Assembly (NCBI RefSeq): GCF_008711175.1
Contig: NZ_VWNF01000049.1
Location: forward strand, 62,001 to 126,000
Direction of reading: 5' to 3'
Source: Nesterenkonia ebinurensis
Lineage (GTDB): Bacteria > Actinomycetota > Actinomycetes > Actinomycetales > Micrococcaceae
Length of the DNA: 64,000 nucleotides
The position numbers and the translations under genes were made by a program. Shown piece after piece: positions 481-6,225 of the stretch (positions are counted from its first letter, which is position 1; each line of letters opens with the position of its first letter). A model generated the notes under the pieces. It searched no databases, had not been told where the DNA came from, and saw nothing but the letters and a program-made list of their open reading frames with translations.

Positions 481-2025
481 ATGGACATTGAAGACGCCTT
501 TGCGGAGCGCTACCGTGCAGTACAGTCACGAGACCGCCGCTTCGACGGCCAGTTCTTCACCGCGGTCTCATCCACCGGCATCTACTGCCGGCCCTCCTGC
601 CCGGCCATCACACCGAAACCGGCTAATGTGCAGTTCTTCACCACCTCAGCTGCAGCTCACGAGGCCGGCTACCGAGCATGCAAGCGCTGTCTGCCAGAAG
701 CATCACCGGGAAGTCCGGAATGGGACCTTCGTCAGGACCTAGCCGGTCGAGCTATGCGCTTGATCCGCGAAGGGGTGCTCAACCACGGCAGCGTTGAGGA
801 CCTGAGCAGCAGGCTTGGCTACAGCAGCCGGCACCTCCACCGCACTCTGCTCGCTGAGCTCGGAGCAGGTCCAGTGGCCCTTGCCCGGGCGCACCGGGCA
901 CAGATCGCACGGAACCTTTTGGTCAGTACGGATCTGAGACTCGTTGATGTAGCGTTCTCTGCTGGCTTCGGCTCCGTGCGTCAGTTCAACGACACTATTC
1001 GGCAGATCTACGCCGCCACCCCTACCGAAGTACGACAACGAGTCGGCGGCAACCGCTTGGCTGAAGATGCCGAGGACTCCAGGCTGTGCCTGAACCTGAT
1101 GCTTCCGGTCCGGCAGCCCTTCGACGCAGAAGGGGTGTTCACCTTCCTCGCTGAGCGTGCGCTGCCCGGTGTGGAGGCCGCCCGGCTGCAGAACGATGAG
1201 CTCCGCTATGCCCGCACACTGCGCCTGCCCCACGGGTCAGGAGCAGTGGAGGTGACTGCAGTTCGCAAAGGGAGCGGATGGAAGCTCTCGATGAGGTGTG
1301 AGGTGGGCTCTTTGGCCGATGTCGGCGTCGTACTGGCACGCGTGCGCCGCATGTTCGATCTGGATGCCGACCCGGCGGCGGTAGATTCCGTGCTCGGGGA
1401 AGATCCGGTGCTCGGACCACTGGTGCATCAGGTGCCCGGTGTGCGCCTGGTAGGTACAGCAGAAGCGCAGGAGTATGTGATCCGGGCGGTGGTGGGCCAG
1501 CAGATCTCGGTGAAGGCCGCACGAACACAGCTGAGCCGGTTGGTTCAGCAGCTCGGCACCCCGGTGGAGTCCACCTTCGAGGGGCTGGAGACACTGTTCC
1601 CCAGTCCGGAGGAAATCCTTGCCGGCGTGCCGGTGCCGCCGGAGGCCGGGGAGCTGAACCCGGAGCGTCCGCTGCGGCTGGCCAGGCGGCAGATCCGCAC
1701 CGTGCGGGCCGCTGCACAGGCGATCACCGAAGGCTCACTGGTCATCCACCCCGGTGTCCATCCCGAGCAGATGCGTGCCCAACTGCTCCAGCTGCCCGGG
1801 ATCGGGAAGTGGACAGCTGCCTACCTGGCTCTGCGGGTGCTGGGTCATCCGGATGACTGGATGACCGGCGACGTCGCCCTGGTGGCAGGTGCCCGCAGGC
1901 TCGGCCTGCTCAGTGATGCGGTCAGCCCGGCGACCACCCACCGCCGTCTGGAACAGCTGGCCGCGAGATGGGCGCCCTGGCGCTCTTACGCTGCGATGCA
2001 CCTGTGGCGTGCCGCAGCAGGCTAA
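481..2025 (+). CDS. alkA: Ada-AlkA fusion: Ada metal-binding/AraC HTH regulator joined to 3-methyladenine DNA glycosylase II
   Basis: This 514-residue protein joins three modules. Residues 9-75 form the Ada zinc domain, with the four cysteines C36, C40, C67 and C70 (YCRPSC ... ACKRC). The zinc-bound cysteine repairs methylphosphotriesters and, in Ada, activates transcription. Residues about 85-185 are an AraC-type double HTH (SSRLGYSSRHLHR, DVAFSAGFGSVRQFN). Residues about 195-514 are AlkA: an N-terminal beta domain, then HhH-GPD with LPGIGKWTAAYLALR and the catalytic Asp464 in TGDVAL. It excises alkylated purines. No Ogt domain is fused; ogt lies separately downstream. The ribosome site is weak (AGGGTG 10-15 bases upstream). 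The fusion type is common in actinobacteria; confidence in function is high. Confidence 0.93.
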   Translation: MDIEDAFAERYRAVQSRDRRFDGQFFTAVSSTGIYCRPSCPAITPKPANVQFFTTSAAAHEAGYRACKRCLPEASPGSPEWDLRQDLAGRAMRLIREGVLNHGSVEDLSSRLGYSSRHLHRTLLAELGAGPVALARAHRAQIARNLLVSTDLRLVDVAFSAGFGSVRQFNDTIRQIYAATPTEVRQRVGGNRLAEDAEDSRLCLNLMLPVRQPFDAEGVFTFLAERALPGVEAARLQNDELRYARTLRLPHGSGAVEVTAVRKGSGWKLSMRCEVGSLADVGVVLARVRRMFDLDADPAAVDSVLGEDPVLGPLVHQVPGVRLVGTAEAQEYVIRAVVGQQISVKAARTQLSRLVQQLGTPVESTFEGLETLFPSPEEILAGVPVPPEAGELNPERPLRLARRQIRTVRAAAQAITEGSLVIHPGVHPEQMRAQLLQLPGIGKWTAAYLALRVLGHPDDWMTGDVALVAGARRLGLLSDAVSPATTHRRLEQLAARWAPWRSYAAMHLWRAAAG

Positions 2026-2128
2026 CGTGGTCCCGGGGGTCGCGCCGCGGCAACAGAAACGACCTACACCTCATGTCGGGACCCAGAAGCCTCCGGGCTA
2101 TCTGTCGCATCTGCGCTATGTTTTTTGT

Positions 2129-2461
2129 ATGGCGAGAATGTTGACTTTCGATCCGAAGCGGATGACTGAGCGGCAGTGGGAGCAGATCCGTCAGACCTTC
2201 GAGCAGGCTGCTTCTGAGGGCGAGGTCGTCTCTGTCGCTTCGTTCGCTGATGAACTGAGTCCCAACGAGGTAGCTGAGCTGTTGATGATGTCCCGGGCCT
2301 CAGTGATGAAGCTGATCCGTTCCGGCCAACTGCAGGCACGGAAAGTTGGCTCACACTACCGCATCCCAGCCCGGGAAGCCGAGCGGTGCCGCGATGAGAT
2401 GATGGCTGCGATGGCCCACGGGGTCGCCGACGATATTCGGGATGAGCTGGGGCTCGACTGA
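2129..2461 (+). CDS. HTH (excisionase-type, MerR-like) antitoxin of a PIN toxin pair
   Basis: This 110-residue protein begins MARMLTFDPKRM. Residues about 40-90 hold an excisionase-family winged HTH (LSPNEVAELLMMSRASVMKLIRSGQLQARKVGSHYRIP), the form found in antitoxins paired with PIN-domain RNases. The frame stays open 240 bases further upstream, inside the Ada-AlkA gene, but ATG 2129 gives the normal N-terminus of the family. The remains of a PIN toxin gene start four bases after the stop, so this looks like the surviving antitoxin of a decayed toxin-antitoxin module. It may still bind its promoter. The reading frame itself is intact. Confidence 0.8.
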   Translation: MARMLTFDPKRMTERQWEQIRQTFEQAASEGEVVSVASFADELSPNEVAELLMMSRASVMKLIRSGQLQARKVGSHYRIPAREAERCRDEMMAAMAHGVADDIRDELGLD

Positions 2462-2464
2462 GTT

Positions 2465-3083
2465 GTGATCCCGGTCTTCCTCGACGCTAACGAGCTCTCC
2501 CGCCCTACCACCCGGATGCTGCTGCTGGCAGGATCCGCACTATGCGGAGTCGTTACCGTTGTGGAGCGCTCATGTCGAGGCCGAAGCTGATAGAGCTGTC
2601 GCCTGCCGCAACCATAAAGAGCGGAAGACCATCATGCTTCCTTCGGCGGTCCGGCAACGCTATATGCCTGAGTTTGCGCTCTCAGCACGAGGGCAGGACC
2701 CTGAGCGGTTCACCCGCACATAGGGCGCTGATAAACAAGTCCTGGCCGATGCCCAGGCAGCTGGGGTGCGGTTTCTGATTACCGAGGACGTGGATGATTT
2801 CGACCCCAGGGACTTGGATGCCGCTGGGGCCAGCGCGGTGACTGCTGACCTGTTCATGAGCCACCAGTGGACTGAGGACGCCTACCGCAACGGCATCGAA
2901 CTACTTGCCACCACCGCCAAGAGCACACCGGAACGCATTCATCAGGCGCTCGAACGGCTGCACCCGCACCTGACTACAGCCTTCGACGATCTCTACCCCG
3001 AGATCACCCCCGATGCGCTCGCGCATGCAGCTCCCGCGGTGGAATACCGCGGTCGTCACCGCCTCCCACCTGCCTCGCACTGA
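2465..3083 (+). pseudogene. Decayed PIN-domain toxin (VapC-like)
   Basis: GTG 2465 opens a frame reading VIPVFLDANELSR, the first PIN strand with its metal-binding Asp. After about 25 codons the similarity moves to another frame (DPHYAESLPLWSAHVEAEAD, from about 2533), so a frameshift lies near 2530-2540. That frame continues through ARGQDPERFTRT, hits an in-frame TAG at 2721-2723, and goes on in the same frame with QVLADAQAAGVRFLITEDVDDFDPRDL to the stop at 3083. The later acidic residues of PIN (TEDVDDF) are visible. One frameshift and one nonsense codon make it inactive. The partner antitoxin is directly upstream. The family match is by motif recognition. Confidence 0.8.
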
Positions 3084-3302
3084 AAGTCCCTTCAGGGCTT
3101 GGAACAGAATGCCGACCGGCCCCTCACCGTCGATCCTGGTCTTGCTGAAGTGTCTGCATCGTTCGCACTTTCCGTCTTTACGACGTAGATACGTTTGCCC
3201 AACCTTGGAGGTTATGTCGGTACCATCACCGACTCAAATCACACGCCTATCTACCGATTCCCCCAGAGAACGTCCTGGTCGAGGAGATTACGGACCCGCG
3301 TG

Positions 3303-3923
3303 CTAGGTTTTTGGCTGTCTTTCCCGGTTGAGCAGGCTGGTTTTGATCTCCAGCCCGTAGCGGAATCCGCCGAGGCTGCCGTCGGTGCGGATGACCCGAT
3401 GGCAGGGCACAAACAACGCTGCGGCGTTCTGTGCACAGGCCCCGGCGGCCGCGCGGATTGCAGCCGGACTTCCGGTGCGCCGAGCGTACTCTGCGTAGGA
3501 CACTGGCTGCCCCGGCTTCACCTGGCGCAGCACCTCCCAGGCGCGTTCGCGGTAGGGGCCAGAGCGCTGCCGGACCGGAATTTCCGCCACAGCACCGTGC
3601 TTGCCCGAGTAATAGGCCTGAACAGCCTGGACCGCCCGGTTGATCAGGGCGTCGCTTCGCTCACTCTCCTCGGCAGGTCCGGAATAAGTCCCCGATGTGG
3701 CTTGCACAGATTCTGAAGAAGCTGAACGGGCCCCTGGGGCCAGGGGCCCTCCGGTCTGCGGTTGGCTCAAGCGGGTGGCGTCGTACTCTGCCTGGTTGCG
3801 CAGCTGGGGGTGGATGAGGGCACGGAGGGAGGCGTGGTCCTCCGTCCAGCCGGAGGCGAGGACATGCTGTGCATCGACAATGATGGTGAACGGCCCGTCG
3901 GGCGTAGCAACAGTGGTGTGCAT
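3303..3923 (-). CDS. ogt: Methylated-DNA--[protein]-cysteine S-methyltransferase
   Basis: This 206-residue protein removes O6-methyl groups from guanine by transferring them to its own cysteine. The C-terminal domain has the active-site motif VPCHRVIRTDGSLGGFRYG with Cys174, the winged-helix arginine-finger region (PVSYAEYARRTGSPAAIRAAAG) and the final LLNRE. The N-terminal ferredoxin-like half is longer than usual because of a Gly/Ser-rich stretch around residues 58-85. ATG 3923 (MHTTVATPDGPF) is chosen; GTG 3947 would add eight residues, and neither start has a convincing ribosome site. It is convergent with the PIN remnant and next to two other alkylation-repair genes. Confidence 0.93.
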   Translation of the reverse strand: MHTTVATPDGPFTIIVDAQHVLASGWTEDHASLRALIHPQLRNQAEYDATRLSQPQTGGPLAPGARSASSESVQATSGTYSGPAEESERSDALINRAVQAVQAYYSGKHGAVAEIPVRQRSGPYRERAWEVLRQVKPGQPVSYAEYARRTGSPAAIRAAAGACAQNAAALFVPCHRVIRTDGSLGGFRYGLEIKTSLLNRERQPKT

Positions 3924-4051
3924 ACCCCTATTCCACCGTGACAGCACTCCCGCGTCTAGCGGAAAACGGACGTCGACTCGATTCCGAGCCGATGCGCCAC
4001 AGAAGCGAAAGATACCCTGACAATAAGGCAGTGCCTCTTTGCACTAAAACG

Positions 4052-4101
4052 TTGACGCTCTAGGACAGCTGCCCTAATCTTGTTGTAGGACAGTCGTCCT
4101 A
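4052..4101 (+). promoter_or_regulatory. Promoter with two TetR-type operators upstream of the tetR-yciI-tag operon
   Basis: TTGACG (4052-4057) and TAATCT (4075-4080) are separated by exactly 17 bases, a good sigma-70-type promoter. Two near-palindromes sit on it: TAGGACAGCTGCCCTA (4061-4076) fills the spacer and TAGGACAGTCGTCCTA (4086-4101) covers the expected transcription start. Their centres are 25 bases apart. This is the layout expected for self-repression by the TetR protein encoded just downstream; the binding itself is inferred. Confidence 0.8.
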
Positions 4102-4118
4102 TCGAGGAGGTGAGATTG

Positions 4119-4703
4119 ATGCCGACAGCAACTCGGCAGCGGATTATCGAAGCAGCTGATGATCTGTTCTACCGTCGAGGCTTCGATCACACATCCTTTG
4201 CCGACATAGCTGGAGAGGTGCACATCTCTCGTGGGAACTTCTATCACCACTTCAGGACCAAAGATGAGATTCTTGCCGCAGTGATCGAGGCTCGACAGGC
4301 GTCTACCCGAGCCATGATCCGGTTATGGGAGGATCAGGAGCCCACTCCTGAGGGGCGCATTCGATGCTTCATCCGGATCGTCATCACCAACGGAGCACTG
4401 ATCGAGCGCTATGGGTGTCCGGTGGGGACTCTGACCAGTGAGCTGGCGAAGCTCGATCACCCCTGCATGGAGCAGGCGCGATCGGTGTTCAGCGTTTTCC
4501 GTGACTGGCTCACGGAGCAGTTCACCGCCCTTGGGCACAAGGACCAGGCAGATGAGCTTGCCATGCGCGTTCTTGCGTTCAGCCAGGGTGTGGCAACTCT
4601 GCACAACGCCTTCGGTGACGAGGCTTTCGTCCAACGTGAGGTGGGCAGCATGGAGCAGTGGCTCAGCACCTACAGCGAACACCTGAAGAGAAAGGAACCT
4701 TAA
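4119..4703 (+). CDS. TetR/AcrR family transcriptional regulator
   Basis: A 194-residue repressor. Residues 1-50 hold the TetR HTH (ADDLFYRRGFDHTSFADIAGEVHISRGNFYHHFRTKDEIL); the rest is the ligand-binding helical domain, similar in style to TetR_C_16/YcdC-like regulators. ATG 4119 has GAGGAGG at 4104-4110; the frame also has GTG 4110 and TTG 4116, but the spacing favours the ATG. The stop overlaps the ATG of the next gene by one base. Two palindromes in its own promoter suggest autoregulation. It heads an operon with a YciI-like gene and the 3-methyladenine glycosylase gene tag. The inducer cannot be told from sequence. Confidence 0.9.
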   Translation: MPTATRQRIIEAADDLFYRRGFDHTSFADIAGEVHISRGNFYHHFRTKDEILAAVIEARQASTRAMIRLWEDQEPTPEGRIRCFIRIVITNGALIERYGCPVGTLTSELAKLDHPCMEQARSVFSVFRDWLTEQFTALGHKDQADELAMRVLAFSQGVATLHNAFGDEAFVQREVGSMEQWLSTYSEHLKRKEP

Positions 4704-4999
4704 TGTTCTTGGTCCTGCTCCGCTTCGGAGAGAACAAACACACTGCATCTGATCACCTCGCCGGGCACAATGCCTGGATCGATCAGGGCTTCGCAGATGG
4801 TGTATTCCTGTTGGTGGGCAGCATTCAGCAGGCCTCCGGTGGAGCGGTTCTCGCAGCAGGTGTCTCACGCGAAGAATTGGAACACCGAGTGGATAATGAC
4901 CCATTCGTTGCAGAGGGTGTGGTGACTGCTGAGATTGTCGAGATTGAGCCGGGGCGGGCAGATGATCGGCTCAGCTTCCTCTTATCAGGTCAGGGGTAG
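4703..4999 (+). CDS. YciI-like family protein
   Basis: A 98-residue protein with the ferredoxin-like YciI pattern: an N-terminal strand (MFLVLLRFGENK), a His followed by a Trp helix (HLAGHNAWIDQGFADGVFLLVG), a glycine strand (SGGAVLAAG) and the DPF motif near the C-terminus (VDNDPFVAEGVVTAEIVEIEP). These are small dimeric proteins with a conserved His/Asp pair and usually no known reaction. It starts at the last base of the tetR stop, so the two are translationally coupled, and it is followed five bases later by tag. Its role in the operon is unknown. Confidence 0.8.
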   Translation: MFLVLLRFGENKHTASDHLAGHNAWIDQGFADGVFLLVGSIQQASGGAVLAAGVSREELEHRVDNDPFVAEGVVTAEIVEIEPGRADDRLSFLLSGQG

Positions 5000-5004
5000 A
5001 GAGG

Positions 5005-5613
5005 GTGGCAGAAGCGATCGTGTTTGCCCCTGATGGTTTGCCGCGGTGCCCGTGGAGCGCGGGCGCACCGGAGTTCCTGGACTACCACGACACCGAATGG
5101 GGCTTCCCCGTTGGAGAGGATCAGCGCCTCTTCGAGAAACTGTGCCTGGAGAGTTTCCAGTCTGGACTGAGCTGGCGCACCATCCTGGTCAAGCGGGAGA
5201 ACTTCCGGGCTGCGTTCCATGGTTTCGACGTGGCGAGGATGGCGCGGATGACTGAGGAGGACGTCGCCCGGCTCCTGCAGGACGCAGGCATCATCCGGCA
5301 CCGCGGCAAGATCGAGGCGGTGATCAATAACGCCCGGCGCGGCGAGGAACTGATCGACCATGAAGGTTCACTGGCGGCCTTCGCCTGGTCCTACGAGCCC
5401 CGCCCCGAGGAGCTGAGTGAGCCGCAGACTGTCTCCACCTCTCCGGCATCGGTGGCGATGTCCAAGGAGCTGAAGAAGCGCGGCTGGAAGTTCGTCGGTC
5501 CCACCACTGTCTTCGCCTTCATGCAGGCCATGGGGCTGATCAACGACCACGTTCACGACTGCATCAGTCGGACAGCGGCAGAGCGGGCCCGCGAGGAGTT
5601 TCAGCGCCCCTGA
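5005..5613 (+). CDS. tag: DNA-3-methyladenine glycosylase I
   Basis: A 202-residue enzyme that removes 3-methyladenine from DNA. The Tag signature is clear: RCPWSAG, YHDTEWGFPVGEDQRLFEKLCLESFQSGLSWRTIL, the KRENFRAAFHGFD segment, and the late SKELKKRGWKFVGPTTVFAFMQAMGLINDHVHDC. The zinc ligands would be the early Cys and the H-x3-C of HVHDC. The start is GTG 5005 with AGGGG at 4991-4995. It is the third gene of the tetR-yciI-tag operon, five bases from the previous stop. With Ada-AlkA and Ogt it gives three alkylation-repair enzymes within 5.2 kb. Confidence 0.95.
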   Translation: MAEAIVFAPDGLPRCPWSAGAPEFLDYHDTEWGFPVGEDQRLFEKLCLESFQSGLSWRTILVKRENFRAAFHGFDVARMARMTEEDVARLLQDAGIIRHRGKIEAVINNARRGEELIDHEGSLAAFAWSYEPRPEELSEPQTVSTSPASVAMSKELKKRGWKFVGPTTVFAFMQAMGLINDHVHDCISRTAAERAREEFQRP

Positions 5614-5706
5614 CTTTTGTTCGAGTGGAGCGAGCGTAGCTGCGGCAAGGCCGTCTGTACCTGGTGTAAGCATCGCCCTGTCACCTACATCCTGACATCA
5701 AGCCAG

Positions 5707-5726
5707 GCGCCGCCCCGGGGCGGCGC
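5707..5726. terminator. Perfect 20-bp GC palindrome after tag
   Basis: GCGCCGCCCCGGGGCGGCGC is a perfect inverted repeat about 95 bases past the tag stop. It is followed by ATTCT, not a T-run, so it is at best an atypical terminator for the tag operon. A second small hairpin (CCAAAA/TTTTGG, 5756-5772) follows. Confidence 0.35.
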
Positions 5727-5812
5727 ATTCTGCGGAAGGCTGGTCCAGCTGGAGCCCAAAAGCTCGTTTTGGACGCATTTTTGGAACAAGCCTCATCGGG
5801 TGGAGAAGGCAC

Positions 5813-5844
5813 AAAAAAGCCCGAGTAGGCGAACCTACCCGGGC
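5813..5844 (-). terminator. Rho-independent terminator of ssrA
   Basis: Read on the minus strand, GCCCGGGTAGG and CCTACTCGGGC form an 11-bp stem with a single mismatch around a TTCG tetraloop, followed directly by six Ts. It lies six bases past the tmRNA 3' end. Confidence 0.93.
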
Positions 5845-5849
5845 AATTT

Positions 5850-6225
5850 GTGGAGACGGCGGGAATTGAACCCGCGTCCGATCTGGATTCACATGGACTT
5901 CTACGTGTGTAGTCCGCTGGGCGTGTTACTCGGTCCCAGGTGTCTCACGGACAAGCACCTGACGGACCCAGCCGCATTAATTGTCGAGAGTCCTTCCTGC
6001 GGCAAGAAGAGCTCTCCAGTGGCCATCTAGCTGATGCCAGTCACTGAGCCGATGGCGTACTCAGGCTGACAGACTCGCGGTCGCTGTATTTCAGGCAGCG
6101 AGGGCGAAGTCAGTGCGCTTAGATTCGGCACTTATTGGGTTGCGCAAGGGGTATTAACGTGGTCACTTGGCGTCCACGACACGCTTCCCCACGATCACCT
6201 CAGATCGTCGAAACCGATCGTCCCC
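5850..6225 (-). ncRNA. ssrA: tmRNA (transfer-messenger RNA)
   Basis: The minus strand starts GGGGACGATCGGTTTCGAC, the conserved tmRNA 5' end, and finishes with GGGTTCAATTCCCGCCGTCTCC, the T-arm and acceptor strand; GGGGAC pairs with GTCTCC. CCA is not encoded in full. The resume codon opens the tag reading frame at 6127 and closes at TGA 6091-6089, encoding AESKRTDFALAA, with the hydrophobic DFALAA end seen by ClpXP. The length of about 376 bases is normal for one-piece tmRNA. It rescues stalled ribosomes together with SmpB, whose gene is not in the window. A strong terminator follows. Confidence 0.97.

Follow-up and report, generated by a model that had tools for sequence, protein, structure and literature searches.

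A 64,000-nucleotide stretch of the actinomycete Nesterenkonia ebinurensis (assembly GCF_008711175.1, contig NZ_VWNF01000049.1, positions 62,001 to 126,000 of the forward strand), here called the window, carries three genes on its forward strand whose spacing marks them as a tight operon at 4119–5613. These are tetR (4119–4703), for a TetR-family repressor; yciI (4703–4999), for a small ferredoxin-like YCII protein; and tag (5005–5613), for a DNA-3-methyladenine glycosylase I. Pfam places TetR_N, YCII and Adenine_glyco on the three products, every one above its gathering cutoff. The genes are packed as a preliminary description of this DNA had claimed, with yciI overlapping tetR by one base (yciI ATG at 4703, tetR TAA at 4701–4703) and tag starting from a GTG at 5005, five bases behind the end of yciI at 4999, with its likely ribosome site inside yciI. 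tetR was called from the ATG at 4119, and an alternative in-frame GTG lies at 4110. Downstream of tag, ahead of the transfer-messenger RNA gene, a GC palindrome at about 5707–5725 folds and is a candidate terminator; it has no T run, and the 127-base stretch that holds it is not more stable than its shuffles (z 0.70).

The promoter named in the same description, TTGACG-N17-TAATCT, is found at 4052–4080 (forward strand; -35 at 4052–4057, -10 TAATCT at 4075–4080), and its register matches that of 68 aligned related loci. Two 16-base palindromes, 25 bases apart from start to start, had been said to cover it. This is true of the distal one, operator 1 (TAGGACAGCTGCCCTA, 4061–4076), which overlaps the spacer and the -10, the TA of the -10 being its last two bases; the proximal one, operator 2 (TAGGACAGTCGTCCTA, 4086–4101), lies over the predicted transcription start and not over the hexamers. 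With one palindrome over the spacer and -10 and the other over the expected start, the layout is that of a polymerase-blocking repressor, and we regard both as predicted operators of TetR over the promoter of its own gene. When the window promoter and the 68 others are aligned on the distal operator, T-T-G-A-C at -9 to -5 occur at frequencies of 0.88, 0.81, 0.80, 0.81 and 0.83, and the -10 takes the form TAnnnT, its TA supplied by the operator end and its T at +19 present at 0.68. The window fits this -35/operator/-10 register exactly. A mechanical sigma-70 scan did not report the promoter at 4052–4080, because its -10 matches TATAAT at 3 of 6 positions only.

In the window alone, the palindromes would attract little attention, since 17 matches with up to three mismatches are found where 11.6 are expected, and at least 17 turn up in 9 of 100 shuffles. 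Across the whole 3.74-Mb genome, the loose operator pattern TAGGNCNNNNGNCCTA occurs solely at the two tetR sites, against seven occurrences of the reversed pattern. Further, TAGGAC-N4-GTCCTA with at most one mismatch has 135 sites in 80 loci with related TetR proteins (909 kb), and 125 of these fall in the last 300 bases ahead of the TetR match. As controls on the same 909 kb, 20 palindromes with shuffled halves gave 0–4 sites each. Genome-wide uniqueness and these controls rule out palindromes arisen by chance. As to further regulon targets in this genome, no other exact match to the loose pattern was found, and neither ogt nor ada-alkA, two genes upstream, has a copy of its own. The operators lie 114–154 bases upstream of the ogt reading frame and may influence that gene.

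The arrangement recurs far beyond this genome. A search of genome contigs with the TetR protein gave 209 relatives, and the analysis was made on the best 80, which are 54–67% identical and include three pairs of loci more than 90% alike in DNA over at least 1.5 kb. They belong to Pseudomonadota, to Actinomycetota (Streptomyces, Nocardiopsis, Pseudofrankia, Planosporangium) and to cyanobacterial, Bdellovibrionaceae and Polyangiaceae metagenome-assembled genomes (MAGs). Behind TetR, 74 of the 80 loci have a YciI relative; one locus (L040) stops 43 bases past the TetR match and is unable to show either yciI or tag. Operators were counted in 78 loci, two being too short upstream, with a site defined as at least 9 of 12 positions: 68 loci have two, nine have one and one (L039) has none, and the spacing peaks at 25–26 bases. 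The full tetR-yciI-tag order with the same operators is present in both Pseudomonadota and Actinomycetota.

Tag is a frequent but optional member of the operon, missing from about half of the 80 loci. It is matched in 43 and stands directly behind in 38, counts that include two loci (L003 and L041) where a mere N-terminal stub of fewer than 30 residues is left behind yciI; 41 matches are non-stub, that of L015 being split. The stubs indicate that the operon Tag was lost more than once. Where YciI and a non-stub Tag occur together, Tag lies no more than 100 bases from the YciI match in 31 of 38 loci. The two enzymes also occur apart: a cyanobacterial MAG (L020) has TetR-YciI and no Tag, and in five loci (L044, from a Polyangiaceae MAG, with L052, L072, L175 and L180) Tag follows directly behind TetR and no YciI was detected. 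In a gammaproteobacterial MAG (L066, 4794–5768), a gene for an AraC-type helix-turn-helix (HTH) and O6-methylguanine methyltransferase protein immediately precedes tetR-yciI-tag, which is a second case of the operon beside an Ada-type gene; the Ada metal-binding domain was not matched in it at E 1e-4.

Two further samples give a similar picture. Among 394 Actinomycetia genomes, 19 had a match at E 1e-30, that of the window included. Thirteen loci have a TetR that is 53–65% identical; with two left out as identical to loci of the first set, all 11 remaining loci have two operators and YciI, and 5 of 11 have an intact Tag within the roughly 1.5 kb inspected. The five loci whose TetR is only 32–37% identical have no operator, YciI or Tag. 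From 289 alphaproteobacterial genomes came 16 loci, and again two repeat loci of the first set (the four identical loci dropped from the later counts are L147, L156, L172 and L174). Here a site was defined as at least 10 of 12 positions, and the other 14 loci have an operator in 13 cases, YciI in 12 and Tag in 12; at this threshold, 5 of the 16 loci have a single site.

Some relatives carry an additional enzyme. In L024, L035, L051 and L057, an alkene reductase (PF00724, 43–46% identical to NemA) is the first gene, ahead of tetR, and the double operator lies before the reductase gene, where it was counted. An Agrobacterium plasmid (L167) reads alkene reductase, TetR, a small unnamed protein at the place of YciI, and Tag, and in the actinobacterial locus L157 broken alkene-reductase-like matches lie between the operators and tetR. 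In three Stappiaceae loci (L005, L007 and L012), a gene of about 340 codons sits between yciI and tag. Its three products are alike, that of L005 belonging to the cyclase family (PF04199).

The repressor itself scores 57.3 bits for the TetR_N helix-turn-helix against a cutoff of 24, which places it in the TetR family, and a close relative has a solved structure, PDB 3dpj. A search of the open literature for that code plus 'TetR' found no paper, subscription journals being largely outside its scope. Cys100, part of the motif YGCPVGTL, is kept in every one of the 81 TetR rows, and the other two window cysteines are poorly kept (C83 in 25 and C116 in 2 of 81). In an alignment with NemR of Escherichia coli MG1655, Cys100 falls in the column of C106. 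The accessible text of PMC5297802 reports that C106 of NemR is critical for the response to reactive chlorine and that C21 and C116 are necessary for glyoxal sensing, and the part of PMC13178969 available to us reports Cys100 of AltR as essential for thiosulfinate sensing. The invariance of Cys100, its place in the C106 column and the alkene reductase of some operons together point to a thiol-reactive electrophile as the inducer, which need not be a DNA-alkylating agent; we infer that TetR may sense such compounds. The NCBIfam models that match this TetR include none for NemR, and AcuR (NF051457) scores 47.2 bits, below its curated cutoff of 247.

YciI scores 28.2 bits for Pfam YCII (PF03795; cutoff 24), and its AlphaFold model (pLDDT 94) has a ferredoxin-like fold; family score and modelled fold agree that this is a YCII protein. 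Three residues (H22, W25 and D66) are invariant in a 44-row alignment, and D32 is present in 30 of the 44; H22 and one of these Asp residues are candidates for a His-Asp catalytic dyad. A sequence search of the PDB with YciI returned no match. By structure, the model is nearest to TftG, by name a 5-chloro-2-hydroxyhydroquinone dehydrochlorinase, then to HI0828 and the muconolactone-isomerase-like ClcF, with chloromuconolactone isomerases further down the list. YciI thus shares a fold with YCII and muconolactone isomerase-like enzymes and has an invariant His22; it differs from TftG and ClcF in sequence, the identity being 15–19% at a TMq of 0.67–0.70.

The glycosylase is assigned by Pfam Adenine_glyco (PF03352, 231.7 bits against a cutoff of 25), by E. 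coli Tag structures (PDB 1lmz, E 3.6e-57) and by the genome search; it narrowly misses the cutoff of NCBIfam TIGR00624 (223.1 against 232.5 bits). Residues C15, H28, E49, H182 and C186, which we take to be the catalytic Glu and the zinc-binding Cys/His positions, are kept in all 41 rows formed by the window and 40 operon Tags, as in the E. coli enzyme. Excision of 3-methyladenine would be the predicted activity of the operon Tag. It is the sole full-length Tag found by the genome search (the assembly is 98.65% complete). Elsewhere the genome holds a relic, the last 39 or so codons of a tag (contig 42, L002 1501–1620), syntenic with the intact tag of a congener, G015.

Other genomes are better supplied. 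In a survey of 30 hand-chosen loci of the 80, an operon Tag is accompanied by a second, more distant full-length Tag (42–60% identical to that of the window) in 12 of 15 genomes, which indicates that the operon Tag is usually additional to another; of the other three, two have no second Tag and one has a fragment only. All 15 genomes that lack an intact operon Tag have a Tag elsewhere. Operon Tags and the stand-alone Tags that some congeners carry fall into one group, from which 17 other Tags of the order are separate; one more Tag of the order (L094) is placed beside the operon group.

The operon is an insertion. Upstream in the window lie a gene for an Ada metal-binding/AraC-HTH/AlkA fusion (481–2025, forward strand; Pfam), matched at E 1e-20 in 25 of 29 congeners, and ogt for an O6-methylguanine methyltransferase (3303–3947, reverse strand, divergent from tetR; Pfam DNA_binding_1). 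Downstream of tag is ssrA, the transfer-messenger RNA gene (5850–6225, reverse strand; ARAGORN, Rfam RF00023). In the congeners G005, G007 and G010, ada-alkA, ogt and ssrA are adjacent. Similarity to these three ends near 3974 and restarts at 5808 by blastn and alignment (the blastn match of G010 on the ogt side ends earlier), so that a segment of about 1.83 kb holding the whole operon (3975–5807) was inserted between ogt and the 3' side of ssrA. Its G+C content is 59.4%, against 65.3% for the window. TetR has no match at E 1e-20 in 57 relatives, 29 of them congeners, and Tag is matched at E 1e-6 in 50 of the 57. The operon is also on plasmids: 38 of 72,556 plasmid records have a TetR relative at E 1e-30, and of four that were inspected, three read TetR, then YciI or a small protein, then Tag, and the fourth has TetR-YciI at the record end. 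An integrase-type island at ssrA was considered and rejected; no integrase gene was seen in the inserted segment, and no clear terminal repeats were seen at either border, without a dedicated repeat search.

How tag came to the operon can be told in two ways. Either a tag of the genus was joined to a foreign tetR-yciI to make the operon, or the operon was once acquired by the genus, most of whose members retained tag only. The window Tag falls in an 11-row group (99/98 support; the bootstrap had not settled) together with the operon Tag L046 and nine Tags that stand alone in congeners, and a test did not reject a single clade for the 10 congeneric clade-B rows, window included (p-AU 0.486). 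Matches of at least 160 residues at E no higher than 1e-10 entered the first Tag tree. From it were dropped duplicate loci and those of the window itself, the relic locus, L015 (in two pieces), L093 (a stop codon within the match) and one congener whose row held a run of N. For the clade test, a tree was made with only three of the clade-A rows and with intact Tags from the Actinomycetia loci added. One congener's Tag seemed to contain an internal insert, which was a run of N and was discarded. A TetR tree made by a quick method puts the window on a long branch, its placement not resolved.

Comparison of sequences thus provides the operon, its operators and promoter register, the invariant cysteine, the insertion and the tag relic, and on these we build a model of repression, electrophile sensing, YciI chemistry and Tag induction. 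We propose that TetR binds the two 16-base operators (TAGGAC-N4-GTCCTA) and, sitting on the spacer and -10 and on the start, would block polymerase and keep tetR, yciI and tag low. Upon exposure, a thiol-reactive electrophile would modify Cys100, as in NemR and AltR, and the same electrophile or chemistry might also alkylate DNA. The modified repressor would release DNA and the operon would be transcribed as a single message. YciI, joined in some relatives by an alkene reductase like NemA or an enzyme of the cyclase family, would dispose of the compound or its product, and Tag would excise N3-alkyladenines from DNA. In this genome, the operon would supply the only full-length Tag found, beside the AlkA of the Ada-AlkA fusion.

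Taken as a whole, this would be a self-contained, horizontally moving detoxification-plus-repair operon that is derepressed by electrophiles, a reading we favor with moderate confidence. Tag repair is probably switched on when a reactive chemical appears. The preliminary description had suggested an inducer-controlled route to Tag, separate from the Ada-type regulator upstream, and the conserved order tetR-yciI-tag with its operators supports a predicted repressor-controlled route of this kind. It is tempting to speculate further that the operon is a mobile genotoxin response, in which one chemical is sensed through Cys100 and detoxified by YciI (and the alkene reductase) while its lesion is removed by a specialized second Tag lineage, which may act on an N3-adduct other than methyladenine. 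Inducible alkylation repair would then have a regulon independent of Ada and SOS, with an operator common across phyla; we offer this extended version tentatively, as less probable than not.

Several observations weigh against the electrophile-derepressed operon. NemR is only distant kin of this TetR (phmmer, 29.8 bits over residues 5–117), and the columns of its C21 and C116 hold F17 and A110, not cysteine. The window operon has no alkene reductase gene and is not in itself a nemA-containing operon of the NemR type. The score of the TetR for PF21993, the LmrA/YxaF-like C-terminal family, is 32.2 bits over a cutoff of 27, and as we know of no case of cysteine sensing in that family, Cys100 might be structural. 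No operator is present at L039 or at the alphaproteobacterial L180, and since about half of the loci lack Tag, the ancestral target may have been YciI alone.

The strongest alternative draws on several of these points. TetR would act through both operators, but its ligand would be a non-covalently bound metabolite, such as an aromatic compound or lactone converted by YciI in the manner of TftG and ClcF of chloroaromatic pathways; Cys100 would be structural and the rise in Tag incidental. The PF21993 domain and the optional presence of Tag fit this, as do the closeness of the YciI model to TftG and, lower down, to chloromuconolactone isomerases, and the cyclase-family gene in the L005 operon with its relatives in L007 and L012. 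Against it stand a Cys100 kept in all 81 rows and an alkene reductase as first operon gene in four loci and on one plasmid, and the five loci with TetR-Tag and no detected YciI argue that Tag is itself a target. We hold a metabolite ligand to be unlikely, though a serious competitor.

A second alternative makes Tag a passenger, joined by chance to tetR-yciI and kept by the mobility of the cassette; in the window, tag would have a weak promoter of its own and the operators would serve tetR-yciI only. Base composition is on its side, as the G+C content of tag (64.2%) is like that of the window and those of tetR (57.6%) and yciI (56.6%) are not, and so are the grouping of the window Tag with stand-alone congeneric Tags and the many loci that lack Tag. 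Yet the three-gene order recurs with short gaps in 31 of 38 loci, the window gap is five bases with the likely ribosome site within yciI, and five loci pair TetR with Tag where no YciI was detected. A promoter scan also found none in 3900–5900, which counts for little, as it missed the main promoter too. We judge a passenger Tag improbable. That tag is an ordinary constitutive gene beside an unrelated tetR-yciI pair, with palindromes by chance, would agree with the description of E. coli tag as constitutive in the accessible part of PMC7051996 and with palindromes that are unremarkable in the window alone, but it is contradicted by the operator statistics and the conserved promoter register and is scarcely credible.

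Returning to the electrophile-derepressed operon that we favor, its parts resemble known systems in different ways. Ada senses methylated DNA phosphate. As in the Ada response, excision of N3-methyladenine would be inducible, and an Ada-AlkA fusion lies just upstream here; the regulator, operator and signal are different. Like nemR-nemA-gloA of E. coli, the operon is headed by the gene of a TetR-type autorepressor, with Cys100 aligned to C106 and a NemA-like alkene reductase in several relatives; unlike it, the window operon has YciI and a DNA glycosylase and lacks gloA and nemA. The resemblance extends to AltR of Pantoea ananatis, for which the available part of PMC13178969 reports that derepression depends on a conserved cysteine, Cys100, and that the operator is an inverted repeat lying partly over the -10. 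That operator is CAATCTAC-N6-GTAGATTG, in contrast to TAGGAC-N4-GTCCTA here, and the AltR targets given in the same part are those of the alt (allicin tolerance) cluster, with no Tag named. The glycosylase belongs to the PF03352 family like E. coli Tag; whereas E. coli tag is described as constitutive in what was available of PMC7051996, the window gene lies behind a dedicated predicted repressor. We read the whole as a NemR-like regulated detoxification operon extended by DNA repair, a reading supported as far as its predicted regulation is concerned.

In the open literature, with subscription papers largely not covered, we found no description of a tetR-yciI-tag operon or its operator. The accessible parts of PMC13178969, PMC5297802, PMC7051996, PMC7641849 and PMC6180224 describe no such operon, and those of PMC11450739 mention a glycosylase and, at another place, a YciI protein, with no tetR-yciI-tag operon.

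Should the model hold, many bacteria would switch on 3-methyladenine repair by sensing a chemical and not damaged DNA. A cross-phylum operon would place Tag, the textbook constitutive glycosylase, under a NemR-like repressor. The operator consensus predicts target genes from sequence alone and offers a direct handle on the role of YCII proteins and on the natural electrophiles that demand an extra Tag. Since no full-length Tag other than that of the operon was found in this genome, the expected cost and benefit should be directly testable.

The surroundings of the operon hold other insertions. At the same ogt-ssrA junction, the congener G015 (L141 4310–6804) has a different insert of about 2.5 kb, with a PIN-like reading frame by eye, and the junction may be an insertion hotspot. 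In the window itself, 2026–3302 is a second insertion relative to G005, G007 and G010, where ada-alkA and ogt are adjacent. It contains a gene for an HTH_17 protein (2129–2458) followed by what by eye is a broken PIN-type gene, and looks like the remnant of a toxin-antitoxin pair.

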